Source: a virus
DNA: 20,806 nucleotides
Reading direction: 5' to 3' (one strand)
IMG/VR virus record: IMGVR_UViG_3300037891_000764
Span: 1-20,806 of that record
In this document: piece by piece, positions 105 through 20,069 of the stretch
Layout of the letters: the number at the start of each line of letters is the position of its first letter
Numbering within the stretch: the stretch's first letter is position 1
Made by a program: the position numbers and the translations under genes
Notes under the pieces: generated by a model
The model's input: only the letters and a program-made list of their open reading frames with translations
Database searches by the model: none
Told to the model about the DNA's origin: nothing

Positions 105-128
105 CTATTTATGATATTCATAAAATAG
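105..128. repeat. Inverted repeat overlapping late promoter
   Basis: CTATTTATGA (105-114) and TCATAAAATAG (118-128) are inverted copies separated by three bases, with one unpaired base in the right arm. In the minus-strand transcript of the giant gene this would fold into a roughly 10-bp AU-rich hairpin three bases after the stop codon at 131-133. No U-tract follows, so a classical intrinsic terminator is not supported. It may protect the 3' end, be a processing site, or be incidental in AT-rich DNA. Confidence 0.45.
106..113 (-). promoter_or_regulatory. Putative T4-type late promoter
   Basis: Read on the minus strand the box is CATAAATA followed by GTGT, one mismatch from the T4 late -10 element TATAAATA that gp55-loaded polymerase recognises. 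It lies 18 bases upstream of the ATG at 87, leaving room for a short leader with the AGGAATAGG ribosome site. The same [C/G]ATAAATAGT box occurs before the other two minus-strand gene runs. It is also one arm of an inverted repeat (105-128). Confidence 0.65.
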
Positions 129-130
129 TA

Positions 131-3100
131 TTATAACTCTATACCCTTACCAAAATCTTGCAACTCTTGTGCAGTATTTGATACTGGTGTACTCAATAAT
201 GAACTGCCTAGTTGGTTATAACTAACAGTATCATTGTCAAATGTAAGTTGATAGTTTGATATTTGAACTACAGCATCACCAGAACTTGCTGATACTATAA
301 ATGTCTGTGCCACTGCTCTTTTTACTATTTTTAGTGTAGTAGCTCCTATTTTAACATATTCAATTATCTCTCCACCAACATATACAAATCCTATAGCATC
401 AAATGCGGTTGTACTTACTACTTCTAAATCAGTACTATCTTCATCTATTGCAGAAGCTAGTGTAGATTTTTTAGCATCAAGTAAGGCATATGCTTTCACA
501 TTGCCTGCCGCATTTTGTATATGCGTAAACGTTCTTGAAGTGTTTGCGTATGTGTTACCTGTCGCATTTGTTTGAACATTAATACGTAACAATTCAAGTG
601 GGTCTATGTTTACAAAACTATTTCTTTTCTCGCCAGCATTAACATTAAAGTTATATGGTGACAAGAAGTTGATAGCTTCAATAGTATCTGCTGGAGTATT
701 AGTAAAGTCTCCACCTGTTACTATGTCTGTACTATCTGCACCAACGTATGTAGTTCCATTAAATGTTGGTGTAAAATCTTGTGTGTTCAGTGTAATTACG
801 TGTTTATATGTATCCGATACAGTTAAAGAAGTTTCATCAATAACTTTATAATTAGTTTTGATTGTACTTACTTTTGTATGGAAAGGTTTGATGTCGTGTA
901 TATAACCTAACGCATTAACTAAATTATCTTTTTTATATGTTCTTGAAGTAGTATCAATTTGACTTTCAACTTCAACTTTAACATATGTTGTTTTTCTAAT
1001 CCAATTTGTTTGTGCAAAAGAACTCAATGTGTAATCAATTACACTAAAGAACAACTTGTTCATTTTTAATTTATGATATTGTACAAATATATCTTTTCTT
1101 AATGCTTCAATGATAGTTTGCCAGAACTCAGATACGTTAGCACGGTCCCAACCTACAGAATCAAATGGAACATTATCATACCCACTTGATGGACATAATA
1201 AGTCTACATCAAATTGAACTGTACTATTTTTCTTGTTTACTAAAATCCATGTAGCAGTATCTTCATTATAAAAGTAGATTTCACTTCTGTCAAGTTTTAA
1301 ATCTGCATCATATATTGGTAGCTGAACTACTCTGTGTAAAGTTTTATCTATCGCAGTTTCAAGTTTATCACTTGATGTTACTGTGGTTGTATAATTTAAA
1401 TTGCCTAAGTATGTTTCTAATGTGTAGTCCATCCATTTCCATAAGTATCTTGGAAAGTTATTTGCTACTAATGTTTTATTCCAACTATCTCTATATTCAT
1501 CATATAGATTAACATTTTTTAATAAATCATTAATTGTTATAATTGCGTTACGTCTAGCAGTAACTAAATTGTTAAACCAAGTTTGTCCAACATCTAAATC
1601 ATCTCCATACTTGTTAAATCTGTGTAATGTTGTAAATGGAATCTTAGCATTATCTTTATCCCAAGCTGAAAGATTATATTTCATACCAGCTACATAATAT
1701 TCTGGAATAGCGTCTAAGTCTTTTGTTATTAGTGTCCATTCGTTATGAGATTTAAATTTATCTCCTGCCTTATTAATTTGTAGTACTGTACTTGTATCTT
1801 CTACATAGTAACTTACGTTATCAATAATAAATGTATTATCATCTAATACTGCAAACCAACTTATTCCATTTGCTGATGGGTTTTCAATAATGTTTCCAGC
1901 GTCAAGAGCTGATATAGTTCTTGTTCCATGTATAGTAGTTTTCTTTTTAACCCAAAAGAAATATACAGTATTATAGTTACCTGTACTAGCATTATATTCT
2001 TGTTCAAGTGTGTAGTAATAGTTTGTCTCTTTAGCTACTTCGTTATATATAATATATGCTTCGCCGGTAGCAGGAACACCAAACATTTCTTTTTGTTCTA
2101 AGACAGCTTCTGCATAATCATCCGGTGCTACTGTAGACTTAACCCATTCCCAAATTACAATTTCGCTACCTGGAAATAATTGACCCCACATATCTTTTCT
2201 GTATCGAGTAGTACCTTGATCATAATCGTAGTAACGAACTTCACTTGTATCCCACCATCTAGTACCTACTTGTTCATTGCTCCAAGCATTGTCGTCATCA
2301 GTGAAACGATCTGTATCTGATGTTGTGTTATAAATTGCATTATCATTTACACTAATATAATCTAAATTCTGTTCAGCTATACCAGGTATAACTTTTCTCA
2401 TTGGATCAAATGCTTCTAACTGTACTTTTGTTTGGTTTGATTTATGATTGTATATAATAATACTATCAATATCTGTGTTAGTAGGTCTTGCTATTGTTTG
2501 TCTTACTACAGCTAATCCATCACCTGTAGTTGTTGATACATATGTTCCGTTTTGTGTACCATTGTTACTTGAAACAGTTAAAGTTCCTGTTGGTAAGTTC
2601 CAATGCGTTTTTGTTAGTGCTGAATCTCTTTGTGTGTTATTTGCAAATCTTGTAGTTACCAATGGCATGACTGAAACTGCATTACCGCACTCTTTAATAA
2701 ATTCGTCTATATAAAAAATTCTACCTGCACTAGGTCCACTTCCTAATTTTGTAACTTTATGTATACCATCTATATTAGGAGTAGTAGTTGTATTCAATAA
2801 CATAACAAAGTCTCCAACTTGTAATCCATGATCAGTATTTGTTGTTACTTCTGCATCATTACCATCGCTTGTTGCAGTACCTGCACAAATTCCACAATCA
2901 GTTCCATCTGTACTTTTAGAGTATAGTGGAACATTATTTTGTATTACTTGTAGTACATTGTACCCAAAGAATTTTGTATTAATGCCAGCGACTGAAGCTA
3001 TTTCAAAATTACTATCATCAGTAACTAGTATATTAAATGTTGCTGAATCTAAACTTGGATCAACTGGTACGCCTCCAAATTGATTTATATCAAACGTATT

Positions 3101-6100
3101 TTGAATTGTTCCTGATACTGCATTTAATGTTCCTGTATTAATACCTGCTATTGAATTAAAAGTAGTATCACCAAGTAATAAAGAACTTGCTGTTGACGAT
3201 ATTTTAATTCTGCTTCCTGGGTCTGCTATAATTGTTACATCTGTATTACTTGCAGATGTTAACGCATTTTGAATTTGAGTAATAGCTGAATTCATTGTAG
3301 TATCAATTGTTTCTGTAACTGTTGTAGCAGTATATGCTGTACTTAAACCTAATATAGTTTGTGCAGAACCGGTTACTGATAATTGAATATTTGTACTTGT
3401 TAATTTTAATCTATCTAAATTAGCTGATGCAACTACATTAGATAAGTTTGTTGTATTATTAATCTGTGTAATTATTTCTGATAAATTCAACGGAGTTGAT
3501 TGTTGTCCAACTTCTGTAGGAGGTGAAACAACAGAGCCACCTGCAAGTAATCCTAAACCTGTATTAGTAGTACCTGATGCTAATGTTAATGTTGCACTAG
3601 GATCTGTTGTATTGAATATAATTTGAAGGAATCCAGAGTTAGCAACTAATCCTGATGTTACTCCAGTAATTCCTGCATTATTAATTTGAGCTACTATCTG
3701 TGCAGTATTCATATTGTCTGGTACGTGTGTTAACGTTATTACTACTTGGTCATTTAGTGTTGGTGTTGATGTAAGCGTTAGCACTTGTCCACTAACTGTC
3801 CAATTAGAAGTTACTACACCCGCGACTGTTACACTAGCAACACTATAAGTAGTATTTGACAATGCCTGTGATATTGTATATACTGTTTGAATAATAGGTT
3901 GGTGAGTTACAGTTATGTCAACTGTCTCACCACCTACCATTGCTGGGCTGTTAATTTTAACAACCTGTCCTGCCACGGTATAGCTTGTAGTTGGTGTACT
4001 GTCTACTTCCACTTTTAGAACACTCCAAGTACTTGGACTTAACTGGGCCGAAACTGTAAAATCTGTTTGTGATGCTATTGCAGTATTTGTTTCTGTAGCA
4101 TCTGCTGGTGCTTGATTTGTTGCTGACTTTGTTTCTACAACGTCTGCTGGTGTTGTATCAAAATCAACTACAGAACCATTAATTGTAATTTGTTTACCTG
4201 TTACATCTGAAATTCCTGGGTTAGCAATATCACCAGTTATTACTGCATCACCAGTAACTATTGTAACGTTTTCTGTTTTAGAAAATCCAATACTTATACC
4301 ATCAATAATTAATGACTCACTTGGTAAGAATGTTGGACTTACAGTAGTACCTACTGCTTCTATATTTTGGTATACTGTTGCAGTATCATTAAATGTAACT
4401 GTAGTACCTGCTATATTTGCAACTGTTCCACTAGGAAATACTGGATTAGTTACTGTACCTATTTCTGTTATATTAGGTGCTACTTCAGTAAGTCCAGTAA
4501 AGTTAACACTACATTTCCATAACTGTCCTTCATGTCTTACTAGGTCATCTTTTTTATAACTTGTAATTGAATTCCATGTAGGTATTGTTGCGTATGGCTG
4601 TTTAGAATCAAAAACATATTTCATTTTTGTTAAATTTGATATATGATATTTTGTTTCTGTAGTTAATGTCTCTCCACCAGTTAATATATCTGATGTAGAG
4701 TCATCATAACTTAATGTTTCAAATGTTAATGCTGTGTCGTTTATAATTTTAGTTTTGCTAACACTATCTATATCAATTGATAATGGTAAGTTTATGATAT
4801 CACTTGATACTAGTTCCATTTCAAATGGGTCTTGTAAATCATCATTACCAAGTGTTGACTGTCTAAACATATATTGGTCAAAAACTGATAGGCTTGTTTT
4901 CCCACCATCAAGTAATGTTGATCTTCCAAATCTTTCAACAGCACCTTTAGTACCTTGTTGTTTAATACTACCTTGATGAAATTTTGTAATAGTATTTTTG
5001 TTTAAGCCTAATCCATTTAACCAATCTTTATTAATATTGCCAATAGTCAAATCTTTTGATTTAGAGATAGACTTATTAAATTCGTCCACATCTGTTCTGT
5101 AAATATCATCAATTGCTTGTACTGCACTATCAAAGTTTTCAACAATATGATCCCCAAACACTAGATAGCCTGGTGCTTTCTTTTCACCGTTCCATTCTTG
5201 TGTACGTTGACCTCTTACTAATAGTCTTTGTTGTCTTTTATTTTTTACATCATTGTATATGTTAACACCCAAAGCTGTTGTATTTTCAAATATTAATGAG
5301 TGTTCAAAATTTGTACTAGCAGTAGTAATGCTTCCAATAAATTTTTGATTCTTAGTTTCAACTGATACTATACCATCTTTTCTTGATATACTTAAATCTG
5401 TTTGTTGAATCTTATTACTATACATATCAAGTATGCTATTGTTGTTATAACTTAATTCGTTGTAAGGATAAACATATCCTGATCCTGAAGTGTAAGTAAG
5501 TCTTCTTCCTATTTGTAATATATAAGTATCTTTATCTTCAGCAGTATTTGTCCAATTCACAAAGTCAGCCGCATTGCTATCGCCTGCATATTGTAATGCA
5601 TATCCTTTAGTTTCTAAATACTTCCAGTACCCTCTAATAAAATTATATACATCTTGTATTTTAGAAACCTTACTACCAAACTCTAATATGCTAGGTGTGC
5701 TTACAAACTTATTATATCTTCTTACAGTAGAGCCTGCAATGGTTTGTAAATCAAAATCAGTTCCATTGCCTAAATTAGGTTCAAAGAATTTAAATTCTCT
5801 TTTATTATCAGCTACACCAGATACTGTATATGCATCTGGAGTTTTTGTAATTAGTAATATAGATGCGTTAACAAAGTTATTAGCAGTACCTTCGTACATT
5901 GAAATATTATAATCATTGTCACCAAGTTCAAAGTCACCGTAGTAACTAGTTTCGCCAAATATATCTAGCAAATGTTTACTACTATATCCTTCAAGTTTTT
6001 GTAATAATTTTGTTGTTAAATTTTTATATAATTCTTTGAAGTTTTTATTTAACTGTCTTCTTAGATTGTAATTATGCTGAGCTTGTGATATTCCATTAGC

Positions 6101-9100
6101 CACATACGATATTTCTTTTAATTCTAATTCGTAATTAATTGTTACGCCACTCATACTAGCACTATATGAAAGTATAGGCTCACCAGTAAAGTGTGTTCCT
6201 CTACCTACCATACTTGTTGCAGTAATTTTGCCACCTGTAGATTTAAATCTTGCAGTACCTAAAATACTATCATACCCATCTAGTAAATAAAATTCGTTTG
6301 TGTCTACTAAACCCGAACTACTTAATACGTTAATACTATTAATAGTTTTATAAGTTTCTCCTGGCATAGTAAAACAAGAACTATTTAAATATCTTTTAGT
6401 ATATGATGTATAGTAATCTCTTACCTTGCCTGGTTGAAAATAATCTGACCATGCTCTGGCAGGATTTAATTTTAACATAGTGTTAACAGTCATTGCTTGA
6501 CCTAATGCAGACTGACGCCATTCTATTTCTATAGGACCCCAATCACCAAACACAAATTCTTGTGCGGCATCTGACGCTGTAGGACTACCCAGTACGGTAT
6601 CTGAATTTACCAAAGCACCACTTGTATCTACAGGACAGTTATTAGTAAAGTCCCAATAACGTCTTGCATATTTTATATTTTGTTTTGTATCTGGTGATGC
6701 TAGTGGTTGTACAATACCTTTTGATAATGCATTAAGCAACGCAGTTCTTTTTGTAGCATCTGTCCAGCTGAAATAAGTATCCCACCAAGTAGGTTTGAAC
6801 GCATAGCCCAACATATGCCACGGTGTTAAGTGTGGCGTAGCTGTGCCAAATACCGTCATATAAGCACCTTTATAGTGTCCTGGTAGTTTGTTAGTACCAA
6901 ACTTATTACCTATGTTTAATGAGCTATAATTCCAAGTAAATGGATCTGTCTGATCATAATAGTTTTCAATATTTAAACTTGTTTTTTGATTTTTAATAGC
7001 CCAGTCTTTATAAAACTTTTCTAAATAATTATCAACATCTGCTAACTTATACCAAGTAGATATATGTTGACTTGGCATATAATCTGTAGCAGATTTATAT
7101 TTGTCTTGAATAGAATAATTGTCTCTGTACATTAAATCTTGTACAATTAATCCTGCATAAATTCTTTTTTCTAAATCAAACAATGCCGCATTTACTGGGT
7201 CAAAATTAGCTCCAGTTGCATCTGTGATCTGTCCAGTAAGTGTATAAGTAGCACCGTCGTGTGTGTATAATATTGAACCAACTACTTGTGGTTGCATACC
7301 ATAAGCTAGTCCAAGTTTAACCATACTAGGTGGAATAAAGCATTCACGGTCCATTTGATTATATACTACCTTAAGTATAGGATTAGTGCTAACATTATCA
7401 AGTGCCGCGTATGTAAGTTTTAAATATATAGTATCACCAATAAAGTCGTAGTCTGTGTCTTTTAATAATATTCTTTCTACTTGCTTATTGCTTCCATTGT
7501 TCTCAGTTAGATATACATATACGTGATCTCTAATATTTTGATCACCATGTATATTAAATTTTGTTTTAAATTCTTTTACAGTAGTATCTGTTATAGTAAA
7601 TGCTTCCAAGTCATATGTATTATGATATACCATGTTAGAATCAATATAAAGTTTTGTATCTTTTTTATTTCTAATAATTTCTTCAATAGCCGATTCAGTT
7701 AAAAGTTTTATACTAGAGTTGTTTGATCCAACAGCATATAATCTTTTAGCTTGTGCTAAGAATCTTTTTCTAAATGCATACCATTCGTTTGCTTGTTCAT
7801 TTAAGGTTGCAGTTATGTTTAAATCTTTATCTGAATAATTTACATCATGCATTATACTAATATCTGGATGTATAAACATTGTACCTCCATAGTATGGAGT
7901 GTGAACAATACTAGAATAATTATTGTCACCAAACATAGTACCTGAGTATCCTGGGTTAACTGTAAGTTTGTCTAACCAGTGGTCTGTTGTCTCACTCATA
8001 GTAAATTCATATATACGTTTGTTGTTAGCATTGTGTTCTAATGTTTCTGGGAAACTAATATTTGTTGTTGGATTACTTGTATCATTGTTTACCCAAGCAA
8101 AGTCAACCAAGTCACCAATTGCAAAAGCACTTTCGTCAACAACTGTAGTAGTAGCATTTATAGTCACTAAAGAATCTGAAACTACTCTACCGTTAATACT
8201 AATATTATAAAATAAGTTATCCCAATTATTTGAAATTGACATAGATGCTATTTCAATGTTATCTGCAATTATAGTAAAGTTATCGCCGTTACTATTTGCT
8301 CCATTAACTATTGTAATTTGCGAACCACTTCTAGTTATGGTTACATCTGGTACAGGATTAGATCCTGGATTTTCAATATCAACCTGACCTGCCTTAAATG
8401 TAATAGTTTGTCCTGTTAAATTGTTTAGTGTAAATGTTTGTCCTACTCCAACTAGATGTCTAGTCTTTTTAACTGACTCATTATATGTTCCATCATTATT
8501 ACATTTGGCTAATATAGTTAAACTACCTTTAACAATTATATTATATTCTTCTTCTGGTCTCCAATTATTTTTACCAACTGGTATAGTTAATGGTGTGTCA
8601 GCTATTGTAATTTCATACTGTTTAGTTTCTTTAGCACCTGTTAATGTTCCTGATGGTTTATAAAATGTTTCTAAGTTTCCTAAATTTTTAATATGATTAT
8701 AACCTGCTAGTGGTTTTGTATAGCTTATATTCTGTACTGTATCATAATATGATTGTTTGTAATTTTTAGTTAGTAAGAAATTTTCAAATTCATACTCTGC
8801 ACCCTTTGGTGTATCTTTATAACTTAATACATGATTAATTTCAGGATCAACAAATGTTCCAGTACCAACTTTATATCCAAAAATCTTTTCACCAGTAAAT
8901 CCTGTAGAATCTATATCTTCTAAAGGAATACCTTCACAGTTATAAAATCTATATAATGGGTACTGATTAATTTTTGTTTTTTGTTGACCTAATGTGATTG
9001 TACTATTTGTATAATAAACATCTGCATTATTCCAATCTGTGTAATTAGAAGATGATACAGATTGAACTTGCATCACATCATTGTTTGCTAATGTTTTTAC

Positions 9101-10618
9101 TGTAGTAGGTGTTGTAGATGTTTTCTTATAAATCTTAGTATCACTGTTATCTATATAAACGTATGTAGCATCAACTGGAAGAACAGATAAATCTTCTCCA
9201 CTTACTACCCCATAATCAATTCTGCCTACTTTGTTTGTTGCTAATGATTTTTGTGCATAGTTCCATAAGTTTAACTCTTCGTTGTATTCTATAATTGGTC
9301 TTTGTGCAATTCTATTTTCTTTTAATATTTCAGTAAAATCATATGTTGGCATTAACTCTTGTACTTTATTAATAGTAGCAAAGTTAACCCACTTGTTTGC
9401 TCTACTCCAAGCAGTTTGATATACATCACCTCTGTCTATAACAATATAATCTTTGTTTGGTGTAAGTGGAGCACGATGATCCCATTTTTCATTAGTTTCA
9501 TTAAATCCATCTAATGCATTAATTAAAGCAAGTTCGGTAGCAGTAATACCTGATACGTTTGTTGTTGTCCATACACCATTACTAAATGTAGCATTAACTA
9601 ATTTTTTAAATGAAACATTTTTTGTTGATGCATCTATTTGTGTAATATAAATTGATTCTGTGTTTGTAGGTTGACTAGTGTGAATCCATTGAGCTGTAAA
9701 TCTTACTAACATATTTTCTTTAAACTGTGCAGGATTAGTATTTGCATTTAAAAAAATAAATCCATCAAATATAGGCAGTCTATTTGCATCGGCGTTATAA
9801 GCATCAACAAGTGCTTGTGGTGTTTGATTACTTGAAGCCCAATAACTATTTGCAGTATTTGGAGCTACTCTTTGAGGTTCACCTGTGTCCCATACACCAT
9901 AGTTTCTTCTTGCTAGTTTAGTATAATCATTATAAATCTTAATTCCGTTTTCGTCTATATATAGCTCTAATTTTGTTTCTGGGTTGTTTGCAGTTACTAG
10001 ATAAGTTTTATTTTTAACAGTTGAGTCCCATCCGTTTCCACTAAATTTTATAAGCATACCCACTTCTAATACAAAAGAATTAGTATCGTCAGTTAGTTTA
10101 TATGCTGGTACTCCTAATGAATCAATTAATGGATCTTTACTTGCTCCTGTATATACACTTTCGTATACAGGCATCTCTTCTATCCATCTATAGTTTTTAT
10201 AGTTTAAGAACTTATCAACATTAATTGATGGACTAAACGTAAACTTGTTTGTAGAATAAGATGCGTTATAATTGTAGGTATCAAAGTTTTGATTTATTGC
10301 ATATGTTATATCATCAAATGCAATTTTATTAGTTAAATCGTTGTTGTTTGAATAAGCTACAATAGCAGGTGTTAGTTGAGTTTTATTTCTAATAGTAGTA
10401 TCAACACTAGGAGTTATATATGTATCAGTAGATACAGAATGTTTTCCGTTGTTACTTCCTATATAGCCGTTGACTTGTCCTAGTGGTCCTTTTGAAACCA
10501 TTTGATCAAGAGTACTATCTAGCCAACTCTTATTAATGTCTGTTTGAAAAACATTAGGTAAAAAGTTACTAGTCTTAATTTTGTTTACCTCGTTTGGGCC
10601 TGCTTTCTTTTTAGACAT
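131..10618 (-). CDS. Giant baseplate-associated virion structural protein, 3495 aa
   Basis: Probably a very large wedge or peripheral baseplate protein: it follows gp6 by three bases, where T4 places gp7, gp8 and later wedge genes. The ATG at 10618 has an AGGAA ribosome site. Residues 18-160 (SNFLPNVFQTDINKSWLDSTLDQM, then a Y/N/W-rich stretch ending DKFLNYKNYRWIEE) resemble the N-terminus of oversized structural proteins of marine T4-type phages, as does GDWGPIEIEWRQSALGQ near 1359. Near 2009-2040 is a chitin-binding-type-3-like patch (W-x4-Y-x2-DDLV-x5-LWKC). About 2180-2500 is Thr/Ser/Val-rich, with two ~57-aa repeats ending VTHQP and LTHVP, then about three ~65-aa units with a QINN motif. 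Near 3160 is conserved-looking EFWQTIIEALRKDIF. About 3380-3458 carries the phage-tail motif D-x-T-x-L-x-V...F...GGEIIEY. No signal peptide or membrane segment was seen. The structural role is well supported; equivalence to gp7, gp8 or gp10 is not. Confidence 0.85.
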   Translation of the reverse strand: MSKKKAGPNEVNKIKTSNFLPNVFQTDINKSWLDSTLDQMVSKGPLGQVNGYIGSNNGKHSVSTDTYITPSVDTTIRNKTQLTPAIVAYSNNNDLTNKIAFDDITYAINQNFDTYNYNASYSTNKFTFSPSINVDKFLNYKNYRWIEEMPVYESVYTGASKDPLIDSLGVPAYKLTDDTNSFVLEVGMLIKFSGNGWDSTVKNKTYLVTANNPETKLELYIDENGIKIYNDYTKLARRNYGVWDTGEPQRVAPNTANSYWASSNQTPQALVDAYNADANRLPIFDGFIFLNANTNPAQFKENMLVRFTAQWIHTSQPTNTESIYITQIDASTKNVSFKKLVNATFSNGVWTTTNVSGITATELALINALDGFNETNEKWDHRAPLTPNKDYIVIDRGDVYQTAWSRANKWVNFATINKVQELMPTYDFTEILKENRIAQRPIIEYNEELNLWNYAQKSLATNKVGRIDYGVVSGEDLSVLPVDATYVYIDNSDTKIYKKTSTTPTTVKTLANNDVMQVQSVSSSNYTDWNNADVYYTNSTITLGQQKTKINQYPLYRFYNCEGIPLEDIDSTGFTGEKIFGYKVGTGTFVDPEINHVLSYKDTPKGAEYEFENFLLTKNYKQSYYDTVQNISYTKPLAGYNHIKNLGNLETFYKPSGTLTGAKETKQYEITIADTPLTIPVGKNNWRPEEEYNIIVKGSLTILAKCNNDGTYNESVKKTRHLVGVGQTFTLNNLTGQTITFKAGQVDIENPGSNPVPDVTITRSGSQITIVNGANSNGDNFTIIADNIEIASMSISNNWDNLFYNISINGRVVSDSLVTINATTTVVDESAFAIGDLVDFAWVNNDTSNPTTNISFPETLEHNANNKRIYEFTMSETTDHWLDKLTVNPGYSGTMFGDNNYSSIVHTPYYGGTMFIHPDISIMHDVNYSDKDLNITATLNEQANEWYAFRKRFLAQAKRLYAVGSNNSSIKLLTESAIEEIIRNKKDTKLYIDSNMVYHNTYDLEAFTITDTTVKEFKTKFNIHGDQNIRDHVYVYLTENNGSNKQVERILLKDTDYDFIGDTIYLKLTYAALDNVSTNPILKVVYNQMDRECFIPPSMVKLGLAYGMQPQVVGSILYTHDGATYTLTGQITDATGANFDPVNAALFDLEKRIYAGLIVQDLMYRDNYSIQDKYKSATDYMPSQHISTWYKLADVDNYLEKFYKDWAIKNQKTSLNIENYYDQTDPFTWNYSSLNIGNKFGTNKLPGHYKGAYMTVFGTATPHLTPWHMLGYAFKPTWWDTYFSWTDATKRTALLNALSKGIVQPLASPDTKQNIKYARRYWDFTNNCPVDTSGALVNSDTVLGSPTASDAAQEFVFGDWGPIEIEWRQSALGQAMTVNTMLKLNPARAWSDYFQPGKVRDYYTSYTKRYLNSSCFTMPGETYKTINSINVLSSSGLVDTNEFYLLDGYDSILGTARFKSTGGKITATSMVGRGTHFTGEPILSYSASMSGVTINYELELKEISYVANGISQAQHNYNLRRQLNKNFKELYKNLTTKLLQKLEGYSSKHLLDIFGETSYYGDFELGDNDYNISMYEGTANNFVNASILLITKTPDAYTVSGVADNKREFKFFEPNLGNGTDFDLQTIAGSTVRRYNKFVSTPSILEFGSKVSKIQDVYNFIRGYWKYLETKGYALQYAGDSNAADFVNWTNTAEDKDTYILQIGRRLTYTSGSGYVYPYNELSYNNNSILDMYSNKIQQTDLSISRKDGIVSVETKNQKFIGSITTASTNFEHSLIFENTTALGVNIYNDVKNKRQQRLLVRGQRTQEWNGEKKAPGYLVFGDHIVENFDSAVQAIDDIYRTDVDEFNKSISKSKDLTIGNINKDWLNGLGLNKNTITKFHQGSIKQQGTKGAVERFGRSTLLDGGKTSLSVFDQYMFRQSTLGNDDLQDPFEMELVSSDIINLPLSIDIDSVSKTKIINDTALTFETLSYDDSTSDILTGGETLTTETKYHISNLTKMKYVFDSKQPYATIPTWNSITSYKKDDLVRHEGQLWKCSVNFTGLTEVAPNITEIGTVTNPVFPSGTVANIAGTTVTFNDTATVYQNIEAVGTTVSPTFLPSESLIIDGISIGFSKTENVTIVTGDAVITGDIANPGISDVTGKQITINGSVVDFDTTPADVVETKSATNQAPADATETNTAIASQTDFTVSAQLSPSTWSVLKVEVDSTPTTSYTVAGQVVKINSPAMVGGETVDITVTHQPIIQTVYTISQALSNTTYSVASVTVAGVVTSNWTVSGQVLTLTSTPTLNDQVVITLTHVPDNMNTAQIVAQINNAGITGVTSGLVANSGFLQIIFNTTDPSATLTLASGTTNTGLGLLAGGSVVSPPTEVGQQSTPLNLSEIITQINNTTNLSNVVASANLDRLKLTSTNIQLSVTGSAQTILGLSTAYTATTVTETIDTTMNSAITQIQNALTSASNTDVTIIADPGSRIKISSTASSLLLGDTTFNSIAGINTGTLNAVSGTIQNTFDINQFGGVPVDPSLDSATFNILVTDDSNFEIASVAGINTKFFGYNVLQVIQNNVPLYSKSTDGTDCGICAGTATSDGNDAEVTTNTDHGLQVGDFVMLLNTTTTPNIDGIHKVTKLGSGPSAGRIFYIDEFIKECGNAVSVMPLVTTRFANNTQRDSALTKTHWNLPTGTLTVSSNNGTQNGTYVSTTTGDGLAVVRQTIARPTNTDIDSIIIYNHKSNQTKVQLEAFDPMRKVIPGIAEQNLDYISVNDNAIYNTTSDTDRFTDDDNAWSNEQVGTRWWDTSEVRYYDYDQGTTRYRKDMWGQLFPGSEIVIWEWVKSTVAPDDYAEAVLEQKEMFGVPATGEAYIIYNEVAKETNYYYTLEQEYNASTGNYNTVYFFWVKKKTTIHGTRTISALDAGNIIENPSANGISWFAVLDDNTFIIDNVSYYVEDTSTVLQINKAGDKFKSHNEWTLITKDLDAIPEYYVAGMKYNLSAWDKDNAKIPFTTLHRFNKYGDDLDVGQTWFNNLVTARRNAIITINDLLKNVNLYDEYRDSWNKTLVANNFPRYLWKWMDYTLETYLGNLNYTTTVTSSDKLETAIDKTLHRVVQLPIYDADLKLDRSEIYFYNEDTATWILVNKKNSTVQFDVDLLCPSSGYDNVPFDSVGWDRANVSEFWQTIIEALRKDIFVQYHKLKMNKLFFSVIDYTLSSFAQTNWIRKTTYVKVEVESQIDTTSRTYKKDNLVNALGYIHDIKPFHTKVSTIKTNYKVIDETSLTVSDTYKHVITLNTQDFTPTFNGTTYVGADSTDIVTGGDFTNTPADTIEAINFLSPYNFNVNAGEKRNSFVNIDPLELLRINVQTNATGNTYANTSRTFTHIQNAAGNVKAYALLDAKKSTLASAIDEDSTDLEVVSTTAFDAIGFVYVGGEIIEYVKIGATTLKIVKRAVAQTFIVSASSGDAVVQISNYQLTFDNDTVSYNQLGSSLLSTPVSNTAQELQDFGKGIEL

Positions 10619-10621
10619 TTA

Positions 10622-13600
10622 TTATGTTCCTGCTCTAATGTTTTCATCTGTTATATTCTGAATAATGTCAATATCGTTAACACTTACATCTGGAATAATA
10701 AGTTCGTTGCTGTCTGGTGTAAATTGAAACATATCACCAAATACACTACCAGCGCCTTGTGGTACAATAACAAAACTACTTAACACACCTGCAAGTTTTT
10801 TATGCACGTATGCCGCTAGTTCTGTAAAGTAAAATGTTTCTCCAAAATCCCAATTTGAAGAATCAAAGAATTCTTTAATAGCTTCTACAGTTTTATTTTT
10901 TAAATCAGTTTCTGTTATATTTGATCCTGTAAGTTTAATTACTCTAAATCTAGCTCGTAGTGCATCTTCTGCGTTTGCACCAAATAAACATTTATACTTT
11001 ACTGGCTTATAAACTATAGTATCGCTCATTGCTTTCTTTTCACCAATAGATGTAAACAACTGTCCTAGTTCATAACTTGTTGGTGGTAACGGCATATTTG
11101 GTACTGTACCTAATAGCCAATTTTTATATTCTGTATCATATGATGTAGTTAAAGCAAACACATCAATAACATTTGTAAAGCTAGGATCAACTACTTGATT
11201 ATCAGAAGCAATATGTTCCCATTCAAAGTTTAAGTTTTCTCTACCTGTGTAGAAAACACTATCAACTGATATTTGTGTTGCACCTACAGTTTCATAGAAT
11301 ACATCTGGATTAGCTGGTCTACTATCTGCATTACCATCTACAAGAACTATTCTATAAGTGTTTAGAGATACTTGGTCGTATCCATATACATAGAACTTTC
11401 CTAGTCTAGAAATTTCATTATTTAAAACACCCAATGCTTGTATACTATCTCTTTTTGCTTTTTTAGTAAAAGAACTAATTTCCATTTCGTTCTGAATGTT
11501 GCCAAGTCTAACTGTGTTACTAGTAAAGTTAAATCTTACAGTTCTTAAATGTATATCATATTGTTGATTAATGTAATTAAAATACAATGACCAATCATTA
11601 AAATTATTATTAAAGTTATCAGGAAATTGTGTGTTAGCATTAAATGCGTCAGGGCTGGTATCTATTTCCCAACCTTTATTTCTAAAATTATATTTTACAC
11701 TAAATGATTTTTTAGCATCAAGATAAGTTATAATATGATCTCTTTCGCTTGTACTAAAGTTTCTTGACAATGCTGGGTATATAATATCTAATGTACTATT
11801 AGATGGAATTTCAGCATCAAGGATAATTGATCCTGTACCATCATTTTGTACACCAGTTGGTTCACCTGCACTTGTTCCTATACCTTCTATACCTAATCCA
11901 AAATTAAATACATCTACAACCTTTGCCCATTTACTACCACTTGATGTTGTAAATTTAAGTAAAGCACCTGGAGTTATAAATTGCATATATGTGTCTACTG
12001 TATTACCAACTCTAACAATAGCATTGCTAGTATTAGTTAGATATCCAGTTTTAACACCACTTGCTGTTTGACTTGGACTTTGCCATACAAAAGAATCTGC
12101 TGTATATGTATGTTCTGTTCTCAATCCATTAAATGCATTTCTGTATTTTGTATAGTACAAATTAACATATTCGTCATTGTTAAAAACATCTTTTACATAT
12201 TTGTTAAACATCTGACTTGTATTATACGAACCACTAGTTGAAGATGTAGACAGTCTTTCGTCTTGATATAATCTTGCATCAGCACCTTGTAAGTATAAGT
12301 TACTATATTCTCCTGTGGGATCAATAAATTTTGAGTACCTACTATGTCCACTAAATGTTCTGTTTATACTTTTTACTTTTATTACTCCACCTGTGTTATT
12401 AGCTAATATAGTATTGTAGTCTTGAGCAGTAATCATTCTGTCTTGACTAGCATAATTCTTTGGTGCATTTTCTCTTATACTATCTAATGATTCACTTGAG
12501 GTTGCATTTGTAATTGCTTGTTTTAATTGTAAAGTAAACACCGCATTATAAGTATTACCATCACGACCTGTGTATGTTATATTAATTTTTTTGTTAGTTA
12601 GGTCATCTGGTCTTAATATATAAGATGTATTTTCGCTTGGTCTGTACCAAACTCTAATTGTGTCTTTTGGGATATTACCAAAAGTTCTATCAGGAAATAA
12701 AATTGATATTTGGTTATTCTCTCTAGTCTTAATACTAAAGATATCTCTAACCCCTGATGCTAAACTATTGTAAACTACATTGCTATTAACATCTTTAACC
12801 TTAGTCCATTCTTTAATAAGATTTCCTGTCGTACTTATATTTTGTACAAAGCAATCTGTGTTGTTAATGTTAGGAACATTAATATCAACTGAGTTACTAT
12901 CAATTGGATCTGCAATATCAAAATCTTGATATGATAAGTTACCTTGTTTAACTCCAAAAAAGAAACCTGTGTTAGCACTACCAATTCCTCTACCGTCATT
13001 TTTAAAATACATTCCAAAATTAGAAACTGGGTCAGGAGACTTTTCTTTAAATGTTAAATTAGCTTCATTGTAATCACTACTAATAATATTAAATGTTTTT
13101 GTAGCACCTGTTACAGTACCCTCAACATCAAACTTAATTTGATTTGGTGTATTGTTTAAGTCATAAAAATCTGTTCTAATGTTATTAAGTACTACACTTT
13201 TATTTGGACTACCATATTGATTACTATTTTGTAAAGTTGAATTTACTATAGTAATAAAATCATCTAAGTTATTAACATCGTTAGTAACTTCGTATCTAAT
13301 TTCTGTTCCACCTAAACTTGCTCCGGTACTACCAATAACTGCTTCGTTTGTTTTAACTGCAACAACTTTCATTTCACCATACGCAGGCACATTACGTCTT
13401 GGAGAGTATCCTAAGAATTCAGCTAGTTTGAAAACTGATTCTTGTTTTTCTGCTGTTGTTAGAAAATTATTTCTAGCATTGAGGTCTACCCTGTATGCTA
13501 GGTTATGTCCAAATTGAGCTACTACATCAAGTAGTGATATAAATTCTGCTGATTCAATCCAGTCATTGTAATTTTCTGGATATGTGCTACGGACATAATC

Positions 13601-13723
13601 AACCATTGCAGTTCGTATTGTATCATAATCAAATGCTTGAAAATTAGCATTCACATAAGATTCGTAAACTACAGTATAGTCTTCTGCCGCAAATATTTTA
13701 TTTTGTCTAGTTTTCTGTGCCAT
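10622..13723 (-). CDS. 6: Baseplate wedge protein gp6 (baseplate J-like)
   Basis: gp6 dimers join neighbouring wedges into the baseplate ring and control its opening before sheath contraction. The first 120 residues carry the family's recognisable start: a DYTVVYESYVNANFQAFDYD segment, YPENYNDW near 48-55, then LLDVVAQFGHNLAYRVDLNARN at 64-85 and AEFLGYSPRRNVPAYGE at 101-117. A second conserved block (NAPKNYASQDRMITAQDYN) lies near 418, as in baseplate J/gp6 proteins. At 1033 residues it is much longer than T4 gp6 (660). I take the ATG at 13723, one base after the gp25 stop, because its product begins MAQKTRQNKIF. An in-frame extension reaches a TTG at 13753 but would overlap gp25 and adds ten unremarkable residues. 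It is co-transcribed after gp25. Confidence 0.93.
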   Translation of the reverse strand: MAQKTRQNKIFAAEDYTVVYESYVNANFQAFDYDTIRTAMVDYVRSTYPENYNDWIESAEFISLLDVVAQFGHNLAYRVDLNARNNFLTTAEKQESVFKLAEFLGYSPRRNVPAYGEMKVVAVKTNEAVIGSTGASLGGTEIRYEVTNDVNNLDDFITIVNSTLQNSNQYGSPNKSVVLNNIRTDFYDLNNTPNQIKFDVEGTVTGATKTFNIISSDYNEANLTFKEKSPDPVSNFGMYFKNDGRGIGSANTGFFFGVKQGNLSYQDFDIADPIDSNSVDINVPNINNTDCFVQNISTTGNLIKEWTKVKDVNSNVVYNSLASGVRDIFSIKTRENNQISILFPDRTFGNIPKDTIRVWYRPSENTSYILRPDDLTNKKINITYTGRDGNTYNAVFTLQLKQAITNATSSESLDSIRENAPKNYASQDRMITAQDYNTILANNTGGVIKVKSINRTFSGHSRYSKFIDPTGEYSNLYLQGADARLYQDERLSTSSTSGSYNTSQMFNKYVKDVFNNDEYVNLYYTKYRNAFNGLRTEHTYTADSFVWQSPSQTASGVKTGYLTNTSNAIVRVGNTVDTYMQFITPGALLKFTTSSGSKWAKVVDVFNFGLGIEGIGTSAGEPTGVQNDGTGSIILDAEIPSNSTLDIIYPALSRNFSTSERDHIITYLDAKKSFSVKYNFRNKGWEIDTSPDAFNANTQFPDNFNNNFNDWSLYFNYINQQYDIHLRTVRFNFTSNTVRLGNIQNEMEISSFTKKAKRDSIQALGVLNNEISRLGKFYVYGYDQVSLNTYRIVLVDGNADSRPANPDVFYETVGATQISVDSVFYTGRENLNFEWEHIASDNQVVDPSFTNVIDVFALTTSYDTEYKNWLLGTVPNMPLPPTSYELGQLFTSIGEKKAMSDTIVYKPVKYKCLFGANAEDALRARFRVIKLTGSNITETDLKNKTVEAIKEFFDSSNWDFGETFYFTELAAYVHKKLAGVLSSFVIVPQGAGSVFGDMFQFTPDSNELIIPDVSVNDIDIIQNITDENIRAGT

Positions 13724-13724
13724 A

Positions 13725-14102
13725 TTAAATCTCTGCGTCCTGTTCCCTATCAAACTTAATTTGCAAATCTGTTGCTGTTATAGTAGGTAGATATGTTAAC
13801 TTTACATTAACTGTAACATAATGTTCTTCTTGTATAACTCTAACATTTGTATCGTTAACTTCGAAACGAGGATCATAATTTACTACAGCAAACACTTCTT
13901 CTCTTATAGACTGAATAGTGTCGTCGTCTAAGGGTTCAAATACATAAAAAGGAAGGTCACATCCAAATGCTGGATCTGTCCACTTCTCACCTTTACGTAT
14001 ATGAAAATGATTTAACAGGTCACGTTTAGCTAGTTCAAGGCCAGAAAGCCCTTTACTAGTATAAGCCTGTTCAACTGTTGTATATCCTATAATCTCGCTC
14101 AT
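13725..14102 (-). CDS. 25: Baseplate wedge protein gp25 (gp25/gpW family)
   Basis: A 125-residue member of the gp25/lysozyme-like-fold wedge family (T4 gp25, P2 gpW), which sits at the inner baseplate near the sheath initiator and links wedge to sheath. The core pattern is clear: DLLNHFHIRKGEKWTDPAFG at 28-47 (the family's 'R-GE-...-P-FG' signature), then FEPLDDDTIQSIREEV and NYDPRFEV, matching the family's E/D-P-R motif, then alternating beta strands with TVNVKLTYLP. The ATG at 14100-14102 has no obvious ribosome site and lies only five bases after a late-promoter box, so the message may be leaderless. No other in-frame ATG occurs in the conserved part. It ends one base before gp6. Confidence 0.92.
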   Translation of the reverse strand: MSEIIGYTTVEQAYTSKGLSGLELAKRDLLNHFHIRKGEKWTDPAFGCDLPFYVFEPLDDDTIQSIREEVFAVVNYDPRFEVNDTNVRVIQEEHYVTVNVKLTYLPTITATDLQIKFDREQDAEI

Positions 14103-14166
14103 ACAACTATTTATGCGATTTATTCTGTTAGTAGTTTATGATTGTATAATTAGCCTATTATAGCTA
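14103..14166. other. Intergenic spacer, start of second late unit
   Basis: This is the only gap of note inside the minus-strand cluster. It is 64 bases, AT-rich, and contains the late-promoter box at 14108-14115. A weak TAGC/GCTA dyad near 14151-14166 lies just after the stop of the lysozyme-like gene; it is too short and lacks a U-tract, so I do not call a terminator. Confidence 0.5.
14108..14115 (-). promoter_or_regulatory. Putative T4-type late promoter for gp25-gp6-giant gene
   Basis: The minus strand reads GCATAAATAGTTGT directly before the gp25 ATG. The box CATAAATAGT is identical over ten bases to the one at 106-113 and differs in one base from that at 20062-20069. T4 late transcripts start about six bases after this element, which here falls on or next to the ATG. 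Confidence 0.6.
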
Positions 14167-14892
14167 TTAACTTAATTGATTTATTAATGATCTCTTTCTA
14201 CTTTCAGAAAGATTTGGCAAGAATCTACTAGTTTCTGCATAATATACATATTCAGCTTGAGATTTTTGTTTATCAGTTAATTGAAATGTACTATACTCTT
14301 TTACTAGCTGTTGAATCCCTTGTTCTCTAATTAACGATCTATCTTTGAATTGTCCATAGTCTGCTAACATTATTATTTTTGATTCAGCTTGTCTTTGTGT
14401 TCTTTTTAGCCCATTTAAAATTAATGCAGTACAAACATAGTCCCATTTCTTTTCTTCAATAAACTCGTATATACGAAATTTTCTATCTTCAGAACCAACT
14501 GATGTAATATCATCAGTAAAAAAGTATAAACTTAATAGCCCATCATATTGGCTTTGAGATAAAGTATTTACTGGTAAAATTTTTTTAAATCTTTTTTCTT
14601 TATCTTTGAAAAGTTCTATCCAACTAGTGAATGCAGAATCTTCAGTTAATCCATCACCTTCTATCTGTTCTGGTGTTCTATTTTTATAACCAATTCTTAT
14701 ATATCCACCAAAGTCTTTCTTATATCCATTCCAGCCTAATGTTCTAATAATATAGTTCATAATACTACCACTAGCTTCCAAATCCTTCACAGGTATTTCG
14801 TCTCTAGCTATATTTCTATCTATAATAGAAAATAAACTAAAATCAATTAGAGTTCTTTCATTAACAATGTTTCCAAAATTAAACGTAGGCAT
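14167..14892 (-). CDS. Lysozyme-like (GH24-fold) baseplate-cluster protein, probably inactive
   Basis: A 241-residue protein between the spike gene and gp25. Residues about 45-180 follow the layout of phage lysozymes (GH24): YKKDFGGYIRIGY at 57-69 matches T4 lysozyme's 'Y-K-D-T-E-G-Y-Y-T-I-G'; GDGLTEDSAFTSW at 79-91 matches the helix start with 'T-x-x-A'; LSQSQYDGLLSLYFF at 111-125 matches 'Q-x-D-A-L-V-S'; and WDYVCTALILNGLKRTQRQAE at 150-170 matches the 'G-L-x-R-R-x-x-E' helix. By this alignment the catalytic Asp is present (D60), but the catalytic Glu has no counterpart and the active-site Thr is Arg (R66). This suggests a structural role or peptidoglycan binding rather than cleavage. The start ATG overlaps the gp5 stop (TAATG), with AAAGGA upstream. 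The fold call is from motif pattern only. Confidence 0.7.
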   Translation of the reverse strand: MPTFNFGNIVNERTLIDFSLFSIIDRNIARDEIPVKDLEASGSIMNYIIRTLGWNGYKKDFGGYIRIGYKNRTPEQIEGDGLTEDSAFTSWIELFKDKEKRFKKILPVNTLSQSQYDGLLSLYFFTDDITSVGSEDRKFRIYEFIEEKKWDYVCTALILNGLKRTQRQAESKIIMLADYGQFKDRSLIREQGIQQLVKEYSTFQLTDKQKSQAEYVYYAETSRFLPNLSESRKRSLINQLS

Positions 14893-18812: not shown

Positions 18813-19432
18813 TAAATAAATCCTCCTCTATTTCCACCTTTTAAAAGATGTCCACCTGAGTAAGTTTGAATATTAAATTCTTTTTTAATATTAGCAGGAG
18901 GAATTTGTGGAACTAAATCTATCGAAGCTAACAGCAATGTTGGAACTGTAGTACTTTGACCGTTTCCAATTTCAACATCAACATAGTCACTATCTTCAAC
19001 TAGTGTATAGTTAAAGTTTCTCATTACTACTGGCACATGACTTGCATGAACAATTCCATATGCACTAAATTTTAAAATAGGCGGTGGTGTTCCAGCTGTC
19101 TCTGCTCGTTGCTGACCAAAATCACTCTTAGTACAAGTTTTAAAAAAATGTATTGCCGCGGCTGTGTATTTTGCTTCTTCTATTGTATTTGAAGAAAATA
19201 ATGCAGTAACGTTAATTGTTGGATTAGCTGTATTCATATAATAATTCTGTTGGAATTGAGAGCCTTGTACTTCATAAGCACCATAGTTAGCATTATGTGA
19301 AAACTGGATAGTAGGAGTGTAAGGAAATAAAACACCACCCATATCATTTAATGGTTTTAGTATGCCGAAGTTCATAGAAAATGGCTTACCTTTTTGTTTT
19401 AATAATAGTTTTACTTTATTTTGAACTGTCAT
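18812..19432 (-). CDS. Baseplate tail-tube protein, gp48/gp54-like
   Basis: A 206-residue protein that by content and position should be a tube-initiator or tube-cap subunit linking hub to tail tube. After a basic N-terminus (VKLLLKQKGKPF), residues 34-60 read VLFPYTPTIQFSHNANYGAYEV, followed by NPTINVTALFSSNTIEEAKYTAAAIHFFKTC at 70-100. This strand-helix layout (beta strands, then an 'S-x-E-x-x-x' helix ending in an aromatic-rich segment) is like the tube-fold domain of T4 gp48 and gp54 ('T-P-R-S-T-E-D-L-M-A-I-I-N-I-Y-Q-Y-F'). The later part (ILKFSAYG, VMRNFNYTLVEDSDYVDV) is again beta-rich. It is shorter than T4 gp48 (364) or gp54 (320), and I cannot decide between them, so no symbol is given. 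It is translationally coupled on both sides by TAATG overlaps. Confidence 0.7.
   Translation of the reverse strand: MTVQNKVKLLLKQKGKPFSMNFGILKPLNDMGGVLFPYTPTIQFSHNANYGAYEVQGSQFQQNYYMNTANPTINVTALFSSNTIEEAKYTAAAIHFFKTCTKSDFGQQRAETAGTPPPILKFSAYGIVHASHVPVVMRNFNYTLVEDSDYVDVEIGNGQSTTVPTLLLASIDLVPQIPPANIKKEFNIQTYSGGHLLKGGNRGGFI
18821..18827 (-). promoter_or_regulatory. Ribosome binding site of the gp53-like gene
   Basis: AGGAGGA on the minus strand, eight bases before the ATG at 18812 and inside the end of the upstream gene. It is one of the two strongest sites in the window and suggests high translation of this small protein independent of coupling. Confidence 0.75.
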
Positions 19433-20040
19433 TATTTTAGTCTATCCTCGATAAATGCAAATATGTTCTCATCATATTTTCCAAAGAACTGATTAAATGC
19501 TTTTACCTTTTCTTCTTTTTCAACACCACTTGCCATAACTTTTCTAAAGTCACTTGCACTCATTCCACCCTGCATAACTGGAGCAACATATACGTATCCT
19601 CTTTCGTTTGCAGTAGGAACTAATTCTTTCATATCTTTTGGTAAGTCGTGTAAGAAACCTTTTCCTGTTTCTAACCTTGATGCATCTTTTTGTCCATATA
19701 CAAGAATAGTAGCAGTATTACTAGGGTCTTTTCCTACTGCTGACAGGTCTGGTCTATATGGATTAGTTTTAACAATCTTGTTTGCAGGTATTCCAAACAT
19801 TTTACTCATTATAGATGCCTTCTCGTCAAACGTAAATGGATCTTCTCCATAGTTACCGCCTGCATGGGCCTTTTGAGCTTTCTGACTGAAAGTAGTGGCG
19901 ATAAATACGTTATCAGCACCAAACTTACTTACTAGATGTTTGTAGACATCACGATGTCCTTGGTGCATAGGTTGGAACCTTCCACCATAGAAAACAGCTA
20001 TATTGTCAACACTTTCTTTTAATACTTCGTTAATTAGCAT
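19432..20040 (-). CDS. Nucleotidyltransferase of the HxGH cytidylyl/adenylyltransferase superfamily
   Basis: A 202-residue Rossmann-like nucleotidyltransferase that would join a nucleoside monophosphate to a phosphorylated substrate. The signature is complete: IAVFYGGRFQPMHQGH at 14-29, with the HxGH nucleotide-binding motif H26-Q-G-H29; YGQKDASR at 115-122; and the C-terminal (I/M)SxSxxR-type loop MSASDFR at 160-166. Members include NMN adenylyltransferase, pantetheine-phosphate adenylyltransferase and glycerol-3-phosphate cytidylyltransferase; the substrate cannot be read from the sequence. Related proteins occur in marine T4-type phages. It is the first gene after the late promoter at 20062, with GGAGAG seven bases before the ATG, and the tail-tube gene overlaps its stop. 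Late expression with baseplate genes is odd for a metabolic enzyme and hints at a virion-related or late-infection role. Confidence 0.85.
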   Translation of the reverse strand: MLINEVLKESVDNIAVFYGGRFQPMHQGHRDVYKHLVSKFGADNVFIATTFSQKAQKAHAGGNYGEDPFTFDEKASIMSKMFGIPANKIVKTNPYRPDLSAVGKDPSNTATILVYGQKDASRLETGKGFLHDLPKDMKELVPTANERGYVYVAPVMQGGMSASDFRKVMASGVEKEEKVKAFNQFFGKYDENIFAFIEDRLK

Positions 20041-20061: not shown

Positions 20062-20069
20062 TATTTATC
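20062..20069 (-). promoter_or_regulatory. Putative T4-type late promoter of the baseplate operon
   Basis: The minus strand reads GATAAATAGTAG, one mismatch to the T4 late element TATAAATA. It lies 21 bases upstream of the nucleotidyltransferase ATG, with room for a leader carrying GGAGAG. It should drive the run from the nucleotidyltransferase through the lysozyme-like gene. Its upstream side overlaps the divergent gp55 early promoter. Confidence 0.65.

Follow-up and report, generated by a model that had tools for sequence, protein, structure and literature searches.

Directly after the baseplate wedge gene gp6, where T4 has gp7, the viral DNA considered here encodes a single protein of 3495 residues, and the question is whether this giant is the gp7-type partner of gp6, a fusion of several wedge proteins, or a peripheral structural protein merely co-transcribed with gp6. 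The window, that is, the whole stretch analysed, is an entire IMG/VR virus record of 20,806 bases, and therefore the search for gp7 and gp8 elsewhere in the genome was confined to relatives.

The giant gene and its transcription unit

The giant open reading frame (positions 131-10618, minus strand) starts with ATG and has zero internal stops. The sequence-only reading had described a single unbroken frame, and this description holds, with the frame kept in relatives as well: the whole 3495-3500 aa are retained in L001, L002, L007 and L008, at 77-87% amino-acid identity to the window giant, and the whole frame also in L034, at 51% identity. Since relatives keep the frame and the product matches the profile phrog_10938 (3324 positions) with E 2.8e-163 in a profile search, the reading frame, as judged from its sequence, is real and cannot be due to chance. 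The features of the locus are as follows.

20062-20068, minus strand: ATAAATA, T4-type late promoter-like site ahead of the first gene (cytidylyltransferase-like)
14108-14114, minus strand: ATAAATA, T4-type late promoter-like site ahead of gp25
13725-14102, minus strand: gp25 baseplate wedge protein (PF04965, 33.8 bits, above cut-off)
10622-13723, minus strand: gp6 baseplate wedge protein, 1033 aa from ATG (phrog_10646, E 6.6e-247; phrog_219, E 5.1e-20)
10628-10631, minus strand: AGGA, likely ribosome-binding site of the giant, within the gp6 end, 9 nt ahead of the giant ATG
131-10618, minus strand: giant wedge-associated structural protein, 3495 aa (phrog_10938, E value as above)
106-112, minus strand: ATAAATA, T4-type late promoter-like site past the giant, ahead of the next gene

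The start of gp6 is better taken at the ATG at 13723, which yields the 1033 aa that match L008. A gap of 3 nt separates the gp6 stop from the giant ATG, and the next gene begins at 87 (minus strand), 43 nt past the giant stop, as it does in L008. Along the minus strand, a cytidylyltransferase-like gene comes first, followed by those for a virion protein, gp53, a large protein of virion/hub type, a protein of gp5 type and one with weak likeness to lysozyme, and then by gp25, gp6 and the giant. On the opposite strand, the far end of the window carries a gene for a gp55-like late sigma factor. The cytidylyltransferase-like gene (19432-20040) is the first of the tail gene group and has its own late promoter-like site; the weakly lysozyme-like protein (14167-14892, 241 aa; phage-lysozyme similarity at E 0.043) occupies the position of a separate lysozyme gene in CBB and RaK2. 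In L008, the region 3' of the giant (20544-30053) contains two radical-SAM genes, several genes without assignment, a gene for a phrog_11259 protein that PA5oct has as well, and one for a protein whose matches are tail-fibre-like.

The heptamer ATAAATA is the core of the T4-type late promoter. It is depleted in the window (4 observed against 17.9 expected), and three of the four copies stand immediately 5' of coding-strand genes, namely the first gene, gp25 and the gene after the giant; the copy at 14108-14114 leaves almost no leader before gp25. Of 68 loci in relatives, 63 carry ATAAATA no more than 700 nt 5' of gp6; the usual positions are about -390 to -440, in front of gp25, and about -20, in front of gp6 itself. 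Inside the giants its density is just 0.011 per kb. Because the heptamer precedes gp25 or gp6 so regularly and is nearly absent within the giants, gp25, gp6 and the giant of the window probably form one late transcription unit.

A gp6-coupled family of virion proteins

Giant virion proteins coupled to gp6 form a large family in jumbo and marine phages, and the 3495-residue protein belongs to it. At least 586 IMG/VR relatives were confirmed by an alignment-based scan, and the isolates CBB, RaK2, PA5oct, Atu_ph07, Phosso, Munch, 121Q and XaC1 encode a giant of 3.3-4.6 kaa after gp6. The complete giants among the IMG/VR loci examined (n = 53) extend over about 2,990-6,230 aa, with a median of about 3,800; the largest member seen has 6,226 aa (L106, 9989-28669). 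A gp6-like reading frame lies upstream at every examined IMG/VR locus that contains the giant start, separated from the giant by -16 to +64 nt at all but two of the loci where the start is visible (265 and 565 nt), and the order gp25-gp6-giant is common to CBB, RaK2, PA5oct, Munch, 121Q and XaC1. An exception among the isolates is Salicola phage SCTP-2, with gp6 and the giant about 92 kb apart; here (L020, 1-9279 and 9357-20780) another giant of 3,096 aa precedes the family giant in place of gp6.

PHROG 10938 'virion structural protein' (CBB_236, RaK2 ORF070, PA5oct gp355, Atu_ph07 gp180, phAPEC6 gp245) is the same family. Its jumbo-phage proteins resemble the window giant in following gp6, in having 3.3-4.6 kaa and in being virion proteins by mass spectrometry in several cases, and differ from it in their inserts, at about 21-25% identity; they carry no assigned function. 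CBB_236 was detected in CBB virions with 21 peptides (PMC5259590) and gp245 (381.9 kDa), which adjoins the baseplate wedge protein gp244, in phAPEC6 virions with 17 peptides (PMC7247149), and the sequence-record note of the PA5oct giant likewise reports a virion protein by mass spectrometry. The giant is a further member of a known, abundant family without assigned function, and its earlier framing as unusual is weak: a giant after gp6 is the rule in this phage group, and giants in the gp7 slot are known in cyanophages.

Anatomy of the giant and its probable relation to gp7

Five blocks (N, mid, core, C1 and C2) are colinear in all 63 complete members, the window giant included. These and the intervening stretches lie in the window as listed below.

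10169-10591, minus strand: block N, aa 10-150, LPxxFQTDxNK...GYIG; 88 of 95 family members match
6719-6991, minus strand: block mid, aa 1210-1300, PWHMLGY..KPTWW; 95 of 95 members, with invariant residues in alignments A1/A2
4799-5161, minus strand: putative gp7-type core, aa ~1820-1940, a KGT turn with helices on either side (hhalign E 6.6e-4; AlphaFold helices)
4502-4579, minus strand: CBM5/12-like patch, aa 2014-2039 (PF02839, E 1.1e-4, 22.5 bits, below the curated cut-off of 26.2)
2549-4501, minus strand: variable insert, aa 2040-2690, beta-rich repeat-like stretches with low conservation and spacer variation
1919-2431, minus strand: block C1, aa 2730-2900, WWDTS..PGSEI; 89 of 95 members
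833-1111, minus strand: block C2, aa 3170-3262, with KPxHTK at aa 3244-3249; 83 of 95 members

The distance from mid to core is nearly constant across the family (333-500 aa), in contrast to the core-to-C1 spacer, with lengths of 209-1549 aa, and the C-terminal tail, with 36-1385 aa. Growth by insertion, as proposed from the sequence alone, is supported by this contrast, which suggests that the enlargement was concentrated in a few spacers. The core-to-C1 insert of the window contains the sub-threshold CBM5/12-like patch, while a similarly weak patch of the PA5oct giant (aa 1595-1618) lies N-terminal to its core (aa 1725-1984), and the module therefore seems to have been moved or independently gained.

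The giant adjoins gp6 as T4 gp7 does, in keeping with the earlier claim that it stands in the gp7 slot. The T4 order is gp6-gp7-gp8-gp9-gp10-gp11, and in cyanophages and pelagiphages gp6 is followed by a protein of 1,016 to 6,422 aa that is sometimes annotated as gp7 or 'baseplate wedge initiator'. In profile comparison, the core of these gp7-slot proteins matches T4 gp7 with E 5e-9 (11 sequences) or 4e-12 (36 sequences), and the match on T4 gp7 centres on the motif FYSTKGIEASYKFLFKVLY. The giant-core profile (94 sequences), in turn, matches the cyanophage/pelagiphage gp7-slot profile with hhalign E 6.6e-4 at the same helix-KGT-helix motif; the score of 35.1 was reached by none of 40 column-shuffled controls (maximum 21.1). 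When the giant-core HMM was searched against gp7-slot sequences with decoys, 23 of 30 best matches, from sequences that are not mutually independent, fell on the KGT site, and reversed decoys gave up to 4.1 bits against 10.9. The E value weakens to 4.5e-3 with the 36-sequence cyanophage profile, and in a shallow window scan an unrelated stretch of the giant (aa 781-1020) scores equal to the core. The signal comes only from the giant-core HMM direction and the profile-profile comparison; in the reverse search, with an HMM of gp7 cores, the giants were not above background. Compared directly with the T4 gp7 profile, the giant core is non-significant (E 0.44), and two of 40 shuffles score equally well against the T4-anchored profile. 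Homology of the giant core to the gp7-slot core is, on the profile evidence, probable.

The predicted structure was compared with this motif. The AlphaFold model of aa 1000-2000 (pLDDT 76) contains helices at aa 1829-1837, 1849-1859, 1874-1887 and 1890-1899, with the KGT turn, which in the window giant reads QGT (aa 1888-1890), between the last two, fitting the helix-turn-helix expectation. For this model and a second one (aa 2690-3300, pLDDT 81), Foldseek against the PDB gave no E below 0.1 and no decisive match that would point to the trifurcation and core-bundle fold of a gp7-type partner, and profiles A2 and A3, searched against PDB sequences, found nothing meaningful; the BFVD search returned mostly family members and a few short unnamed matches. 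The best VIA match (Z 5.0, phi812 baseplate chain 9euj_G) covers 63 residues and is tied with an adhesin domain, and that to a Milano baseplate chain has Z 2.8; neither was taken as evidence.

T4 gp7 shares with the giant the gene position and a similar helix-KG-helix motif (T4 aa 641-830), but has only a third of its size (1032 aa) and is followed by separate gp8, gp9 and gp10. The cyanophage giants (Bellamy 111 'baseplate wedge initiator', 4067 aa; P-HM2 gp7, 4454 aa; S-SSM7 gp7, 3007 aa; S-PM2p081; S-RIM44) share the position after gp6, the giant size and the KGT core motif; their core, however, is near the N-terminus and not after ~1,800 residues, and their C-terminal motif is of the HPAGF type where the window giant family has KPxHTK. 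Neither block C2 nor other giant windows matched the HPxGF C-terminal motif of T4 and cyanophage gp7, and homology between HPxGF and KPxHTK, which gave no score, was dropped.

Wedge subunit, fusion or periphery

The probable reading is that the giant is a gp7-type baseplate wedge subunit, enlarged by insertion, rather than several T4 wedge genes fused into one, because of its coupling to gp6, the late promoter sites, the core motif, the failure to find separate gp7 and gp8 genes in six relatives and the presence in virions of relatives. Against it stand the non-significant direct comparison with T4 gp7, the weaker E value with the 36-sequence profile, the equal score of an unrelated stretch, the gp7-core HMM that does not separate giants from background, the HPxGF motif that was not recovered, the want of a decisive PDB match and the distance between gp6 and the giant in SCTP-2. 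In T4 and XM1 (PMC10457771) and in TssFG (PMC6300606), a single gp7-type chain joins two gp6-type chains in a helical bundle, six wedges encircle the hub, and fibres or equivalent structures attach to regions that are not part of the bundle. By analogy, the core helices of the giant (aa ~1820-1940) would pair with two gp6 copies in a 2:1 heterotrimer like those of T4 gp7, XM1 gp17 and TssG, with six giants per baseplate. The minimal wedge partners XM1 gp17 (242 residues) and TssG (PMC10457771, PMC6300606) are far smaller and are likened to the giant by role, not by sequence, its expected role being likewise that of the single partner of a gp6-type dimer. The large N-terminal arm, the C-terminal arm and the variable insert, with its beta repeats and CBM5/12-like patch, would radiate from the core and may build the baseplate periphery and the fibre docking sites, work that in T4 is split among the rest of gp7 and gp8, gp10 and gp11. 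A bolder extension, possible but on balance doubtful, is that in each wedge a single chain of 3,000-6,000 residues takes the place of gp7 together with the whole T4 periphery (gp8, gp10 and gp11), the outer baseplate then consisting of six giants whose inserts carry host-recognition modules.

Whether the giant holds the gp7 function itself or stands beside a small, undetected gp7 was weighed against the searches in relatives. The gp7 family phrog_17744 and the gp8 families phrog_438 and phrog_977 detect T4, HTVC008M and Bellamy, and none of them revealed a separate gene in CBB, RaK2, PA5oct, Atu_ph07, Phosso or the 221-kb relative, the contig closest to the window, although a diverged gp7 or gp8 could escape the sensitivity of this search. 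Separate gp7 and gp8 homologues elsewhere in the genome, which the sequence-only reading had named, together with the lack of a structural match, as refuting its proposal, were thus not found in the five complete jumbo genomes and the 221-kb relative. In a rival reading, the giant belongs to the baseplate periphery or a fibre network, as VrlC and other giant cyanophage structural proteins would, and is merely co-transcribed with gp6, whose true partner is then a small, undetected gp7. This would suit the CBM5/12-like patch, the variable inserts, the weakness of the direct T4 gp7 match and the separation of giant and gp6 in SCTP-2; it is nevertheless unlikely, given the near-universal adjacency to gp6, the KGT core in register with the gp7-slot proteins and the result that no other gp7 was found in the relatives searched. 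An assignment to head or packaging, suggested by the PHROG category 'head and packaging' of phrog_10938, is barely credible: the gene lies within the baseplate gene group in relatives, and the category label is loose, since PHROGs also file cyanophage gp7-slot proteins under head or connector.

The option that the giant absorbed gp8 and gp10, raised from the sequence alone, found no support. A chain in which gp7 is fused with gp8 (and gp10), with those domains still present, would agree with the failure to find a separate gp8 in six relatives, with the restriction of gp10-type similarity among jumbo isolates to PA5oct (and, weakly, one 452-kb contig), and with a length above that of T4 gp7, gp8 and gp10 combined. 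The window giant, however, has no match to the gp8 PHROGs or to phrog_958 (gp10), and hhalign of windows along it against gp8, gp9 and gp10 gave best matches of 18-54 columns, none of them domain-sized (for gp10, 32 columns at E 0.014). Phrog_958 detects T4 and, by its C-terminal part, a separate gene three genes downstream of the giant in PA5oct, but not the giants. Size does not imply fusion, because cyanophages hold a gp7-slot giant together with a separate gp8, as in Bellamy, where gp8 follows the giant. Such a fusion is therefore very improbable. The phrog_438 matches on the giants of Atu_ph07, Phosso and Bellamy were rejected as a gp8 domain: one short stretch (positions ~186-280 of phrog_438) recurs, with as many as eight matches in Atu_ph07 and Phosso and several in Bellamy (giants at L011 11532-24881, L016 11917-25584 and L014 20085-32288), which looks like a shared repeat module.

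In RaK2-like jumbo phages the family is represented by a virion protein of very large size; it is present on more than 500 environmental viral contigs and is labelled in current databases 'virion structural protein' or even head protein. The gp7 role, if true, would supply the missing wedge partner of RaK2-like jumbo-phage baseplates, predict that it pairs with gp6 and is present in six copies, and point structural biologists to the position of the core in a chain of 3,000-6,000 residues. Giants in the gp7 slot are already annotated in some cyanophages; for PHROG 10938 the gp7 assignment is what we infer here. The view of marine T4-like phages as lacking gp7, with VrlC as a replacement (PMC7029224), is also affected, as the protein between gp6 and gp8 matches T4 gp7. 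In pelagiphage HTVC008M (L013, 19828-22878 and 24311-30316), the protein encoded between gp6 and gp8 has 1016 aa and is one of the sequences in the profile matching T4 gp7; PHROGs label it 'head closure Hc2'.
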